Positions 55,523 to 62,586 of a stretch of 64,000 nt of DNA are shown here, piece by piece; positions within the stretch are counted from its first letter, which is position 1, and each line of letters begins with the position of its first letter. Position numbers and translations under genes: made by a program. Below the pieces are notes generated by a model that searched no databases, had not been told where the DNA came from, and saw only the letters and a program-made list of their open reading frames with translations. The stretch comes from Asaia bogorensis (GTDB lineage Bacteria > Pseudomonadota > Alphaproteobacteria > Acetobacterales > Acetobacteraceae): positions 248,001 to 312,000 of the forward strand of contig CAMBMS010000001.1 of the NCBI GenBank assembly GCA_945868845.1, in the 5' to 3' direction.

Positions 55523-56701
55523 ATGCGCGACGACCCTGAGACTGACAAGCGCGAGACTGACCGGGACGAACTGGCGGCCCTGGATCGCGCTGGCATGGCC
55601 GAACCGGCGCCTATCCCCCTGCTGCCCGGCCTTTCCACGCGCGGTCGCGGTGCTACGTTAAATCCGGCGGTGCGCTTTGAAAGTCTTCGCACACAAGCCT
55701 TCGACGATGGGTGGGAGACCCTGGAAACGGAGGAAACCCCACCGCCAAAAACCACCCTGACGCGCGATGCCACCCGTAGCGTCATCAGCTGGAACGACAG
55801 CCCCGATCTCGGCTTCGACCGTTCGGTCAATCCTTATCGCGGCTGCGAGCATGGCTGCGTCTATTGCTACGCCCGGCCCACGCATGCCTATCTCGGCTAT
55901 TCCCCCGGCCTCGATTTCGAAACCAAACTGGTCTTCAAGCCGGAAGTAGGCGAATTGCTGGAAAAGGAGCTGCGCAAGCCCGGCTATGTGGCGCAGGTGA
56001 TGGCCCTGGGTACCAACACCGATCCCTATCAGCCTGTGGAACGAACGCTGAAACTGACGCGGGCGGTGCTAGAGATATTGGAAAAATTCAATCACCCAGT
56101 TTCCATCGTCACCAAATCCGCTGGGGTGCTGCGTGATCTGGATATTCTCGCCGCCATGGCGCGACGCCGGTTGGCGCAGGTTTATCTGTCCGTGACTACG
56201 CTGGACCCGGTATTGGCAAGGAAAATGGAACCCCGTGCCGCCGCCCCCACAAGACGTTTGCAGACCGTGACGGAACTTGTCCGCGCCGGGGTCCCGACCG
56301 CGGTGATGGTGGCACCAGTGATCCCGGGACTGAACGATCCGGAGGTGGAAAAACTGGTGGAAGCCGCATCCCGCGCCGGCGCCCGCGAGGTGAGAATGAT
56401 CCTGCTCCGCCTCCCGCATGAGCTGCGCGATCTGTTCACCGACTGGCTGCACACGCATTACCCGGACCGCGCCGGACATGTGCTGAGCCTGATCCGCGAA
56501 ACGCGCGCCGGGGCGCTGAACGAATCAAGTTTTCACCAGCGCTTCACAGGCACCGGGATCTACGCCGAACTGCTGCGCAAGCGATTCGCTCGCGCCGCGC
56601 GCCAGTGGGGGCTGAACACGGATAGGGAGGCGCTGGATTGCAGCCAGTTTGCGGTTCCAGGGGCGGCAAAGGGGGTGGACAGGCAGCTTTCGCTATTCTG
56701 A
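55523..56701 (+). CDS. Radical SAM protein, PA0069/Rv2578c-like
   Basis: 392 residues. The iron-sulfur motif is CEHGCVYCYARPTHAY (C-x3-C-x2-C), with RGCEHG and FKPEVGELLEKEL, TNTDPYQPVE, SIVTKSAGVLRDLDIL, SVTTLDPVLARKMEPRAAAP and APVIPGLNDPEVE, the pattern of the PA0069 branch of COG1533, related to spore photoproduct lyase. The N-terminal 90 residues are less conserved. The ATG at 55523 follows the conserved layout; ribosome site weak. Function in the family is not established; a LexA box suggests a role in DNA damage. The C-terminus ends QLSLF, which resembles a beta-clamp-binding motif (inference). Confidence 0.87.
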   Translation: MRDDPETDKRETDRDELAALDRAGMAEPAPIPLLPGLSTRGRGATLNPAVRFESLRTQAFDDGWETLETEETPPPKTTLTRDATRSVISWNDSPDLGFDRSVNPYRGCEHGCVYCYARPTHAYLGYSPGLDFETKLVFKPEVGELLEKELRKPGYVAQVMALGTNTDPYQPVERTLKLTRAVLEILEKFNHPVSIVTKSAGVLRDLDILAAMARRRLAQVYLSVTTLDPVLARKMEPRAAAPTRRLQTVTELVRAGVPTAVMVAPVIPGLNDPEVEKLVEAASRAGAREVRMILLRLPHELRDLFTDWLHTHYPDRAGHVLSLIRETRAGALNESSFHQRFTGTGIYAELLRKRFARAARQWGLNTDREALDCSQFAVPGAAKGVDRQLSLF

Positions 56702-56751
56702 CGTTGAACGCGCTCCCGGGATCGGCCATGATAGCCTCTTCCCAGCCACCC

Positions 56752-56936
56752 GGCGCGGGAGAGAGTGGTTGGTAGCAACCGCCGCCGAAGGCGCAACCGG
56801 CCCCCGGAAACGCTCAGGCAAAAGGACCGCACTGGGATCAAAGGATCTCTGGAAAGCCATCCCCGGACCATAGGGGCCGCACCGACGGAGAAAGGGTTCT
56901 CACCCGAATCTCTCAGGTTCCAAGACAGAGGGGGGT
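56752..56936 (+). ncRNA. Tandem glycine riboswitch (gcvT element)
   Basis: Two consecutive aptamers. The first has GGGAGAG, GCCGAAGGCGCAA, CGGAAACGCTCAGGCAAAAG, and ATCTCTGGAAAG; the second has CGACGGAGAAAGG, AATCTCTCAGGTTCCAAG and ACAGAGGGG. Both patterns are classic for glycine riboswitches, and the element lies before gcvT-gcvH-gcvP, which degrade glycine. Glycine binding is expected to turn the operon on. Limits are approximate. In the linker, GGGTCGC (56933-56939) can pair with GCGACCC (56986-56992), next to the gcvT ribosome site, a possible off-state stem. Confidence 0.93.
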
Positions 56937-56993
56937 CGCACCCGCGCACGCTCCGGCATTTCGCCGGCGCGGCGTCGCAGAAGGAGCGACCCG

Positions 56994-58175
56994 TTGACTG
57001 AAACAACCGATCAGACCACCCCGTTGCACACCACGCCGCTGGACGCGCTCCATCGCGCATGGGGCGCGCGTATGGTGCCGTTCGCCGGATATGCGATGCC
57101 AGTGCAATATGATTTCAGGGACATGCTCTCCCCCGATTCTGATTTCAAGAACGCGCTCTCCGTGCGATGCAAAGGCGGTGTCCTGGCAGAACACCTGCAT
57201 TGCCGTGCGCAGGCCGGTATGTTCGATGTCTCCCATATGGGCCAGGCCAGCCTGCACGGCGCCACCGCCGCGGCCGCGCTGGAACGCCTGGTCCCCAGCG
57301 ATATTCAGGCCCTGCGCCAGGGGCGGCAGCGCTACACACTGCTTATCAACGAAGTCGGTGGCATCATCGACGATTTGATGGTCGCCCGACTGGCCGAGGA
57401 CCGTCTGTTCCTGGTCGTCAATGCCGACCGCAAGGACATCGATTTTTCCTATTTGCGCACCAACCTGCCCGCGGACGTCACGCTGGAGGAGCATCCCGAC
57501 CGCGCTTTGATCGCCCTGCAAGGACCGCTCGCCGCCGCCGTGATGACACGGCTCTGCCCACCGGCTGCCGCCCTGCCCTTCATGGGTATCACGATAGCCA
57601 CTATCGACGGCATTGCCGCCCTGATCTCGCGCTCCGGCTATACCGGCGAGGACGGGTTCGAGATTTCCGTCCGCGCGCCGGATGCCGAGCGTCTTGCCCG
57701 GCTGCTGCTGGAACAGCCGGAAATAATCCCGATCGGCCTTGGCGCTCGTGATTCGCTGCGCCTGGAAGCCGGGCTTTGCTTGTATGGCCACGATATCGAC
57801 GGGGTCACCACGCCGATCGAGGCGGGCCTGACCTGGGTCATCGGCAAGCGTCGCAAGATGGAATGGAATTTTCCTGGCGCCATCGCCATCCGCGACCAGC
57901 TCGACAATGGCGCGCCGCGCCAGCGCGTCGGCCTGCGCCCGGATGGCCGCGCCCCGGCCCGCGAGGGGACCGAGATCCGCGCCAACGATGGCAGCAAGGC
58001 CGGGCTGATTACCTCCGGCGGCTTCTCGCCCAGCCTGCATGCCCCCATCGCCATGGGCTATGTCCGCCGCGACCTCGCCGCCGACGGCACAGAGGTCCAA
58101 CTGATGGTGCGCGGCAAAGCCCTGCCCGCTCGCGTCGCCCCCTTGCCCTTTCACCCGCACCGCTACGCCCGATAA
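56994..58175 (+). CDS. gcvT: Glycine cleavage system T protein (aminomethyltransferase)
   Basis: 393 residues; T-protein of glycine cleavage, moving the aminomethyl carbon to tetrahydrofolate. MVPFAGYAMPVQY, AGMFDVSHMGQ, SGYTGEDGFEI and LGARDSLRLEAGLCLYGHDI are family landmarks, with the catalytic Asp in LCLYGHDID. The start is TTG, decided by AAGGAG seven bases upstream. The protein is about 20 residues longer than usual because of an in-frame insertion between PVQY and GGVLAEHLH (residues about 40-60) formed by two similar ten-residue units (57111-57170). First gene of the riboswitch-controlled gcvTHP operon. Confidence 0.93.
   Translation: MTETTDQTTPLHTTPLDALHRAWGARMVPFAGYAMPVQYDFRDMLSPDSDFKNALSVRCKGGVLAEHLHCRAQAGMFDVSHMGQASLHGATAAAALERLVPSDIQALRQGRQRYTLLINEVGGIIDDLMVARLAEDRLFLVVNADRKDIDFSYLRTNLPADVTLEEHPDRALIALQGPLAAAVMTRLCPPAAALPFMGITIATIDGIAALISRSGYTGEDGFEISVRAPDAERLARLLLEQPEIIPIGLGARDSLRLEAGLCLYGHDIDGVTTPIEAGLTWVIGKRRKMEWNFPGAIAIRDQLDNGAPRQRVGLRPDGRAPAREGTEIRANDGSKAGLITSGGFSPSLHAPIAMGYVRRDLAADGTEVQLMVRGKALPARVAPLPFHPHRYAR
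57111..57170 (+). repeat. Tandem 30-base duplication inside gcvT
   Basis: Two adjoining 30-base units begin GATTTCAGGGACATGCTCTCC and GATTTCAAGAACGCGCTCTCC; 17 of the first 21 bases agree. They encode DFRDMLSPDS and DFKNALSVRC. The pair makes up the insertion absent from typical GcvT proteins. Confidence 0.75.
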
Positions 58176-58186
58176 AGGACATCACC

Positions 58187-58561
58187 ATGCCCCAGATCCG
58201 TTATTCCAAGGACCATGAATGGGCGCGCCTGGACGGCGACATCGCCACCGTGGGCATCACGGACCACGCCCAGGAGGCGCTCGGTGACGTGGTGTTCGTG
58301 GAACTGCCAGACCCTGGCCGCGCGGTGGAAGCGGGAGAAGCCTGCGCCGTGGTCGAAAGCGTCAAGGCTGCCTCCGATGTCTATGCCCCGTTGGCCGGTA
58401 CCGTAACCGAAATCAATGCGTCCATCGTCGATGATCCCGCCAAGGTGAACGCCGCCGCGACGGATGATGGCTGGTTCTTTAAACTTAAAATCTCCGACCC
58501 CGCCGCTTTCACAACGCTCCTGACCGAGGCCGATTACAAAGCCTTCCTGGAGACGCAGTGA
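58187..58561 (+). CDS. gcvH: Glycine cleavage system H protein
   Basis: 124 residues, lipoyl carrier of the glycine cleavage complex. [20 protein letters not shown] at the N-terminus and the lipoyl lysine in [20 protein letters not shown] lies six bases before the ATG, 11 bases after the gcvT stop. Its stop overlaps the gcvP start (TGATG). Confidence 0.95.
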
Positions 58562-61449
58562 TGCCCGACTCCATCAAGATCGACGCACTGGAAGAGCTGA
58601 AAATCCTGGAAGAAGCGGATGGTTTCATCGCCCGCCATATCGGGCCCAGCGAAAGCGATGTTGCGTCCATGCTGCGTACGCTCGGCCTTGTTAGCCTGGA
58701 TGATTTGGCAATGAAAATCATGCCCGGAAACATCCGTACCAATCAGGCGATGAACCTGCCGCCCGCCATCGACGAGGCTGCGACCATCGCCGAATTGCGC
58801 GCCCTCGCGGCACAAAACTCGACCGCCAAATCCCTGATCGGCCTTGGCTATCACGGCACCGTTATACCGCCTGTTATTTTGCGTAACGTGCTGGAAAACC
58901 CCGGCTGGTACACCGCCTACACGCCCTATCAGGCCGAGATTTCCCAGGGTCGGCTGGAGGCCCTGGTTAATTTCCAGACCATGATCTGCGATCTGACCGG
59001 GATGGAGATCGCCAATGCGTCGTTGCTCGATGAAGCGACTGCGGCGGCCGAGGGCATGGCGATGGCACACGCGCTCTCCAAAACAAAATCGGATGTCCTC
59101 GCCGTGGCGCGCGATGTGCACCCACAAACCCGCGCAGTTATCGCCACACGGGCGAAACCGGTCGGTATCACCCTGATCGATTTCGATCCTGGTGACATCG
59201 TGGCGATCCGCGCTGCCAAGCCGTTCGCGCTATTGCTGCAATATCCTGGCTCCACCGGCGAAATCCGCTCCCTGGAAATGGAGATCGAAGCCATTCACGC
59301 CGTGCAGGGCCTCGCCATCGTCGCCGCCGACCCGCTGTCGCTGGCACTGCTGACGCCACCCGGCGAGATGGGCGCCGATATAGTGGTCGGATCTGCCCAG
59401 CGTTTCGGTGTGCCAATGGGATTCGGCGGCCCGCATGCCGGATTTTTCGCGACGCGCGATGCCTTCAAGCGCGCCATGCCCGGCCGCCTGGTCGGCGTTT
59501 CCATCGATGCCACGGGGGCGCCGGCCATGCGACTCGCCCTGCAAACACGCGAGCAGCATATCAGGCGCGAAAAAGCCACCTCAAATATCTGCACCGCGCA
59601 GGTTCTACTGGCTGTCATCGCGGGATTCTACGCCGTCTGGCACGGCCCGCGCGGGCTGGCCCGTATCGCGCGGCGCGTTAACTTGCAGGCGCGCCTGCTG
59701 GCCGATGTCGCCCGCTACGCCGGTTTTCCCCTTCGCCACGATGCGTTCTTCGATACCATTGCCATTACGACGGGCGTGCGAACAGACGCGATCGTGGCGT
59801 CGGCATTAGCCGCCGGCTTCAACCTACGTCGCGTCGATGCCGGCACGATCGCCATCGCATTAGATGAGACGGTCACCCGCGACGACCTGATGAACCTTGC
59901 CGCCGTGCTCGGTGGCACGCTCTCCGCCGCGACGCCGGATATTCCCCCACCCCTGCTGCGCGGCACCCAGATACTGGCACACGTCGTGTTCAACATGCAT
60001 CACAGCGAACACGAAATGCTGCGCTATCTGAAACGCTTGGAAGACAAGGACATCGCGCTCAATCGCAGCATGATTCCGCTCGGTTCCTGCACGATGAAAC
60101 TGAACGCAGCGGCGGAGATGATCTCCGTCACTCTGCCCGGATTTGCCGATATCCATCCCTTCGCCCCGGCGGATCAGACGCGCGGCTTCCTCACTGTCAT
60201 AAACCAGCTGGCGAACTGGCTGAAGGAAGCCACTGGTTTCGCTGCGATTTCCCTCCAACCCAATGCCGGTTCGCAGGGCGAATATGCGGGTTTGCTCGCG
60301 ATCCGCGCCTGGCACGAAGCACGCGGCGAAGAAACACGCGATATTTGCCTCATCCCCTCCTCCGCCCACGGCACGAATCCCGCCAGTGCCGCAATGGCCG
60401 GATTGCGCGTCGTCGTCGTCGCCTGCGACGCGCGCGGCAATGTCGATCTTTCAGACCTACGAAGCAAAGTCGCCCAACACATGGAAAAACTTTGCTGCCT
60501 GATGATCACCTACCCCTCCACGCATGGCGTGTTCGAGGAAAAAATCCGTGATATATGTGCCCTCGTGCATACGGCTGGCGGCCAAGTCTATATGGATGGC
60601 GCTAATATGAACGCCCAAGTAGGCCTGACCAACCCCGCCGCCATTGGCGCCGATGTTTGTCACCTTAACTTACATAAAACTTTTTGCATTCCACATGGCG
60701 GTGGTGGCCCTGGTGTCGGCCCGATTGGCGTCGCCGCGCATCTTGTACCACATCTGCCGAACCATCCGCTGCGCGACGATGCCGGTCCGGTAACGGGCTT
60801 CGGTCCCGTCTCTGCCGCGCCTTTCGGCTCAGCGTTGATTCTGCCGATCTCCTACGCCTATATCCGCATGATGGGCGCGGCGGGCTTGACCCGCGCGACC
60901 GAGGTCGCAATCCTCAATGCTAACTACGTGGCGTTTCGTTTGAGGGGTCATTACCCGATTCTCTATACCGGCCCTTCCGGCATGGTCGCCCATGAATGTA
61001 TCGTCGATTGTCGCGGTTTCCAGGTCGAGGCCGACGTGATGGTGGAGGATATCGCTAAACGCCTGCAGGATTACGGCTATCACGCCCCCACCATGTCCTG
61101 GCCTGTCGCCGGCACCCTGATGATCGAGCCCACCGAAAGCGAAGCTAAATCTGAGCTGGATCGGTTTTGCGACGCGATGATCGCCATTCGCGCGGAAATT
61201 TCCGCTATTGCCGCCGGGACGCTGGATAAGGCCGATAATCCGCTCAAGAACGCGCCGCACACGGCCAACGAAGTCGCCGCGAATGACTGGGCGCATGCCT
61301 ATTCTCGCCAGCAGGCGGCGTTTCCGTTGCCCTGGGTCGCACGCGCGAAATACTGGCCGCCGGTGAAGCGCGTGGATAACGTGTACGGCGACCGCAACCT
61401 GGCCTGCACCTGCGCGCCACTGGAAGACTATGCGCAGGCTGCGGAATAA
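58561..61449 (+). CDS. gcvP: Glycine dehydrogenase (decarboxylating), P protein
   Basis: 962 residues: single-chain P protein (fused alpha and beta). [17 protein letters not shown] at the N-terminus, [21 protein letters not shown], the PLP lysine in [20 protein letters not shown], and the glycine-rich loop region all present. It decarboxylates glycine and hands the aminomethyl group to GcvH. A GTG three bases earlier is an alternative start. It ends the gcv operon; a ThDP decarboxylase pair follows after 27 bases. Confidence 0.95.
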
Positions 61450-61476: not shown

Positions 61477-61989
61477 ATGACGAACACAGCCGCGCTCAGC
61501 CCGGAAACGGTGATGCGCCAGATGAAGCAGAATGGCGTGACCGACATCGTCTGGCTGCCGGACAGCGAGACCAACTGGCTATTCCTCCTGATGCAGGCCG
61601 ACCCCGATCTGCGCCTGGTCGGTGTAACACGTGAAGGCCATGCCTGCTCCATCGCCGCAGGCCTCTTCGCCGGGGGTAAGAGGCCGATGATACTGATCCA
61701 GAATACCGGTATGATGGAATCGGGCGATTCCATTCGCGGCTGGCTGATGGGATTGAAAATCCCCATCGTGCTGATGGTCGGTTATCGCGGCTACACCCGC
61801 CATGGCGTGAACACGGACACGGCCGCGACCTACACGGAACGCTTCTTGATGGCCTTCAGCATTCCCTTCTACCTCGTGGAAAATGACGCCGACGCCGATC
61901 GCATCTCCATCGCATTTAAGGAAGCCGAGAAAATACAGGGTCCCGTCGTCGTCCTGGTCGGAGATGAATATCACGGCTTTAACCGGTAG
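61477..61989 (+). CDS. ThDP-dependent decarboxylase, alpha (PYR-type) subunit
   Basis: 170 residues, similar to the alpha subunit of sulfopyruvate or phosphonopyruvate decarboxylase. It has VWLPDSETNWLFLLMQ, the ThDP-activating glutamate in VTREGHACSIAAGLFAGGKR, MILIQNTGMMESGDS and GYRGYTRHGVNTDTAA. GGGGGA lies about nine bases before the ATG. Natural substrate unclear; no sulfonate or phosphonate genes are in the window. It starts 27 bases after gcvP and may be read with the glycine operon. Confidence 0.82.
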   Translation: MTNTAALSPETVMRQMKQNGVTDIVWLPDSETNWLFLLMQADPDLRLVGVTREGHACSIAAGLFAGGKRPMILIQNTGMMESGDSIRGWLMGLKIPIVLMVGYRGYTRHGVNTDTAATYTERFLMAFSIPFYLVENDADADRISIAFKEAEKIQGPVVVLVGDEYHGFNR

Positions 61990-62001
61990 GATTTCCGTAT
62001 C

Positions 62002-62586
62002 ATGATGCACACAGCCGACATGCTGAAAATCTTTGCCCAACATCGCGGTGATTCCATCGTCATCTCCGGCCGTGGCGGCAAGCACTGGATCGCACTTTCG
62101 GACACAGCCCTCGATCTGCCCCTCGGCGATCCCGCCATGGGCGGGCATTCGGGCTTTGGCCTCGGCTTGGCGCTGGCGCGGCCCGACAAGCGCGTGGTGC
62201 TGTTCGATTCCGAGGGCGATATCCTCATGAGCCTCGGCCAGCTTCCCACCATTGCCGAGCAGGCACCGGCAAATTTCTATCATTTCATTCTCGACAACGA
62301 AGTCTATGCCACCACCGGCGGCCAGCCTGTGCCGAATGCGAAAAATGTGGATTACGCCATGATGGCGCGCAGCACCGGCTATCCGCGCGCCTTTAACTTT
62401 TCCGAACTGGGCGAATTCGCCACCGCACTGCCCACTATTCTTGGTGCCCCTGGCCCCGTGCTCGTGGCTCTCAAGGTCTGGCCGGAAGTGGAAAATACCC
62501 CCATCAACCAGCGCGTCCGCTGGCGCAAGCGCGGCGCCGACAAGGTGGTGCAGGATCTGCGCGGCGCGTTGGGCGTGGCACGTTGA
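62002..62586 (+). CDS. ThDP-dependent decarboxylase, beta (PP-type) subunit
   Basis: 194 residues, the pyrophosphate-binding partner of the preceding subunit, 12 bases downstream. GDPAMGGHSGFGLGLALARP and the ThDP and Mg segment VVLFDSEGDILMSLGQLPTIA ... FILDNEVY (the first Gly of the usual GDG is represented by EGD here). Together the two would make an alpha/beta decarboxylase like ComDE. Substrate unknown. Confidence 0.82.
   Translation: MMHTADMLKIFAQHRGDSIVISGRGGKHWIALSDTALDLPLGDPAMGGHSGFGLGLALARPDKRVVLFDSEGDILMSLGQLPTIAEQAPANFYHFILDNEVYATTGGQPVPNAKNVDYAMMARSTGYPRAFNFSELGEFATALPTILGAPGPVLVALKVWPEVENTPINQRVRWRKRGADKVVQDLRGALGVAR

Follow-up and report, generated by a model that had tools for sequence, protein, structure and literature searches.

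The gcvT locus and its product

The DNA stretch of Asaia bogorensis analysed here (64,000 nucleotides, hereafter the window) carries an intact gcvT gene encoding the glycine-breakdown enzyme aminomethyltransferase, or T-protein, of 393 amino acids. The gene is preceded by a glycine riboswitch aptamer and contains an unusual in-frame repeat near its 5' end. The features concerned are the following:

56746-56839, + strand: glycine riboswitch aptamer preceding gcvT (RF00504, 69.9 bits)
56994-58175, + strand: gcvT, TTG start, assigned by Pfam domains and predicted fold
57111-57140, + strand: unit copy 1 (DFRDMLSPDS), additional to that of relatives and seen in the genome of the window alone
57141-57170, + strand: unit copy 2, DFKNALSVRC, which aligns with the single unit of relatives
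57171-57176, + strand: KG, the end of an older 12-residue spacer common to all carriers
57177-57209, + strand: GVLAEHLHCRA, the conserved helix (residues 62-72) after the insertion and a possible source of the older insertion

No second glycine riboswitch aptamer was detected ahead of gcvT in 56700-57010, even at E<=5. Downstream, the frames at 58187-58561 and 58561-61449 are, judging by their translations, what we take to be gcvH and gcvP, respectively. Beyond gcvP lie two adjoining frames (61477-62586, + strand), which presumably resemble one half each of a thiamine-diphosphate decarboxylase.

The gcvT product matches the folate-binding domain GCV_T at residues 16-282 (1e-82, 277.7 bits) and the barrel domain GCV_T_C at residues 309-386 (2.8e-21, 75.6 bits), both above the Pfam cut-off. 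By these domains and by its whole-length modelled fold the protein is classed as a T-protein, for which aminomethyl transfer is predicted. The AlphaFold2 model, built with 81 sequences, reached a pLDDT of 95.1 and a pTM of 0.92, and superposed on the human T-protein 1wsr with a Z of 52.4 and an rmsd of 1.2 over 362 residues. Near the site of the repeat, G62, E66, H67 and R71 are invariant in 81 GcvT sequences and kept in the window. The GcvT proteins of human (1wsr), Bartonella henselae (3gir) and Escherichia coli (3a8i) share the whole fold, the Pfam domains and the invariant residues with the window protein, which differs from them in having 20 additional residues after the strand that ends in PVQY and before the GVLAEHLH helix. 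In most GcvT proteins the spacer from PVQY to VLAEHLH has three residues (e.g. PAG), while in the window it has 23 (DFRDMLSPDSDFKNALSVRCKGG), hence the excess of 20; the 26 residues given in a preliminary description of this DNA were an overcount.

A worn tandem repeat in the spacer

As the preliminary description had proposed, the insertion contains two adjacent 30-base units, at 57111-57140 and 57141-57170, both in frame and with 17 of 21 matching bases. This figure applies to the first 21 bases, a length picked in that description after the match had been seen; the unselected figure is 18/30 over the whole unit, the two copies thus differing at 12 of 30 bases. When ten-codon strings were drawn at random from 2,232 codons of six frames in the same part of the window, 17/21 was reached in two of 2,000,000 draws and 18/30 in 331 of 2,000,000. 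Among real in-frame coding 30-mers nearby, none of 2,162 reached 17/21, the best attaining 14. The adjacent direct repeat at 57111-57170 thus exceeds chance.

A scan of the whole 64 kb at 37 lags of 12 to 120 bases returned 11 places with 17/21 matches, one of them, the gcvT site, at a lag of 30. Matches of this quality thus occur elsewhere in the window, and what gives this one weight is its position exactly in the insertion. Tandem Repeats Finder at score 30 did not report the unit pair, since the copies are worn rather than fresh. The last nine bases of the units (CCCGATTCT versus GTGCGATGC) resemble each other no more than random tails do, even in a gapped alignment (p 0.56), so that copy 1 may represent a partial duplication plus other changes. 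A compensated frameshift near the end of copy 1 was considered as well and was dropped, because random codon tails align equally well in 56% of draws.

Distribution among the Acetobacteraceae

The occurrence of the insertion was surveyed in 397 genomes of the family with a 67-residue query at E<=1e-12. Matches were found in 24 genomes, that of the window included, spread over eight genera. Each of the 23 other carriers (loci L118-L140) is exactly ten residues shorter than the window over the matched stretch: counted from PVQY to GVL or GVM, the spacer has 12 residues in all 23 and 22 in the window only. A longer query at E<=1e-5 gave a GcvT-type match in 350 of the 397 genomes, a number that may include paralogues. 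The same 24 carriers ranked first, and among the matches listed the next ones span the site without insertion. Of 80 loci from named genomes (L032-L111), 74 fitted a spacer pattern between MP and EH. The spacing was nine residues in 51 of them, eight in 20, 12 in one (L092) and 19 in the carrier L032, as against 29 in the window; the three residues read in one further locus are an artefact of the pattern. In the GcvT of L092 (uncultured Erythrobacter sp.) the same loop contains a small insertion distinct from these (IQYTGEGGGIVAEH), which may be taken as a sign of a loop tolerating changes in length.

The spacer being 12 residues long in the 23 other carriers and 22 in the window, this comparison assigns the 20 extra residues to two events: part of the family gained ten residues early on, and a ten-residue repeat was added later in the genome of the window only. 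The earlier idea that the extra residues form one tandem repeat thus holds for ten of them, which belong to the duplication; the other ten belong to the older insertion common to 23 other genomes. Nor is the insertion a repeat-free feature of all Acetobacteraceae GcvT proteins, one half of it occurring in part of the family and the other in the genome of the window alone.

Order of events

One congener was available for comparison (G001), its genome being 85% complete, which leaves some room for a loss there. It carries the unit once, as DFRDAMAARC, and the two GcvT proteins align over 382 residues with one ten-residue gap and no other (83.2% amino acid and 81.5% nucleotide identity). Over 21 bases, each window unit matches the congener unit at 14 positions, against 17 between the two window units, and CTCTCC is found in both window units where the congener has ATGGCC. 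Because the window copies are closer to each other than to the congener unit, the tandem duplication most likely came after the split from this congener.

In a tree built from 45 GcvT rows, the window and the congener are joined as a pair with full support (100/100). The best tree does not unite the carriers of the older insertion in one clade, the non-carriers L011 (on a long branch) and L023 falling among them; a single clade of carriers is not rejected (p-AU 0.27), and the tree is poorly resolved in depth, with 16 of 42 inner branches starred.

The comparison with close relatives agrees with the slippage-type tandem duplication suggested at the outset, as the congener and 22 further carriers, that is 23 of the 23 other genomes with the longer spacer, have just one unit in this position. 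The word "recent", which had been attached to this event, finds no support, the copies being 81% alike over 21 bases, about the identity of the whole gene to that of the congener (81.5%).

Predicted structure of the insertion

In the model of the window protein, copy 1 appears mostly as a loop (residues 40-48), with a block pLDDT of 67 for residues 41-50, and copy 2 lies in a short helix (residues 49-58) ahead of the conserved helix 62-72. The model of L032, which has the older insertion only, shows a short helix at residues 33-38 with a block pLDDT of 88 for residues 31-40. A local alteration of the fold, as first surmised, is therefore plausible, although the models point to a modest one, limited to a loop and a short helix in an otherwise normal T-protein.

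Origin of the repeat

What was observed here comprises the sequences, the genomes in which they occur and the timing of the events with respect to the split from one congener. On that footing, the repeat is very probably a lineage-specific in-frame tandem duplication of an ordinary kind, placed on top of an older insertion found in part of the family; it lies in a surface loop, presumably a tolerant one, of an otherwise normal T-protein. In an old first step, ten residues would have been gained in part of the family, adding a short turn or helix ahead of the conserved GVLAEHLH helix. In a younger step, restricted to the lineage of the window, the 30 bases of the extra unit would have been duplicated in tandem, most simply through replication slippage or misaligned repair, and both copies would then have diverged. 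The loop probably tolerates such changes in length, and the enzyme would consequently be expected to work normally, with unchanged function. Short insertions seem commonly to be of this kind: in a human-lineage study, 134 of 151 coding insertions were tandem duplications (PMC2151769), a figure that applies to humans. The gcvT case has the same traits as such short in-frame tandem duplications, i.e. an adjacent direct copy, a length that is a multiple of three, a preserved frame and a restriction to one lineage. It differs in that its copies are worn, the event being older than the recent ones catalogued in that study (PMC2151769).

The extension could instead be adaptive, altering the docking of the T-protein with the H-protein or the folate site. 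The T-protein N-terminal region is described as essential for inducing changes in the H-protein (PMC7733448), and the constant length of the older insertion in all 23 other carriers may reflect constraint. Such constancy is, however, also expected from shared descent, and copy 1 is predicted with low confidence and mostly as loop, which makes this explanation an unlikely one. A chance resemblance between stretches of unrelated sequence, acquired in one insertion or several to make up the 20 residues, would be in line with the overall match of only 18/30, with a repeat below the Tandem Repeats Finder threshold and with the unaligned tails of the units. The rarity of 17/21 and 18/30 matches in the random draws reported above nevertheless speaks against it, as do the extra length, equal to exactly one unit, and the closer resemblance of the copies to each other than to the congener unit, and we regard it as very improbable. 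An assembly or sequencing artefact might be suspected in a draft genome of 49 contigs, but a false duplication would yield identical copies, whereas these differ at 12 of 30 bases and keep the frame; its probability appears negligible.

The preliminary description had also raised the possibility of a mobile in-gene palindrome-type element. Rickettsia palindromic elements are palindromic, dispersed, short in-frame insertions in protein genes. Like them, the gcvT insertion is short, in frame and situated in a loop of a housekeeping protein; unlike them, it is neither palindromic nor dispersed. The repeat is direct and not inverted, and the single-stranded DNA folds no better than shuffled sequences (z 0.28, 110 of 200 shuffles being as good). 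The sole inverted repeat in 57060-57220 is a weak pair 79 bases apart. In the 3.2 Mb genome, a 21-base pattern with three mismatches allowed recovered, besides both units, three scattered sites that just reached the mismatch limit, and a 20-amino-acid query at E<=10 found only itself, so that neither search revealed a further copy of the 30-base unit. With no hairpin signal, no close inverted repeat and no dispersed copies, an insertion of an element of this type was rejected as highly implausible.

The older insertion

The origin of the older ten residues was considered from their resemblance to the neighbouring helix. With a two-residue gap allowed, a likeness to the adjoining GVLAEHLHCR is seen in the 12-residue spacer (e.g. 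DLTGALAERCKG) of 21 carriers out of 23; the two others did not fit the pattern of the script and were left out of this comparison. The local score averaged 17.3 over the 21 carriers, against 10.2 in column-permuted inserts, and permutations as good as the real spacers occurred in 1/1000 cases for protein and 3/1000 for DNA. These values concern a likeness spotted by eye before testing, thus post hoc, between two stretches that are both helical, and the alignment needs indels. The spacer of the congener itself has hardly any likeness to the helix that follows. The comparison hints that the older insertion may have arisen as a tandem copy, since worn, of the ten codons that follow it. It is accordingly conceivable, if rather doubtful, that the loop grew twice by duplication of its neighbour, the GVLAEHLHCR codons being copied first and this copy being duplicated later in the lineage of the window, which would make the site a length hot spot in GcvT. 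If so, this would be a loop where new short helices arise from the adjacent one.

Conserved signature indels are clade-restricted insertions in housekeeping proteins. The older insertion is like them in its constant length (23 of the 23 other carriers), its conserved flanks and its occurrence in a subset of one family; it may differ from them in its carriers, which do not group together in the best gcvT tree, a single clade not being rejected (p-AU 0.27). A search of the literature on Acetobacteraceae signature indels and on GcvT insertions found no description of it. The older ten-residue insertion is thus a possible signature indel, which could mark a subset of the family given monophyly of the carriers. 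The finding has otherwise little importance beyond bookkeeping, and the nested insertions provide a neat small example of how a loop in a housekeeping enzyme may grow through short tandem duplications.
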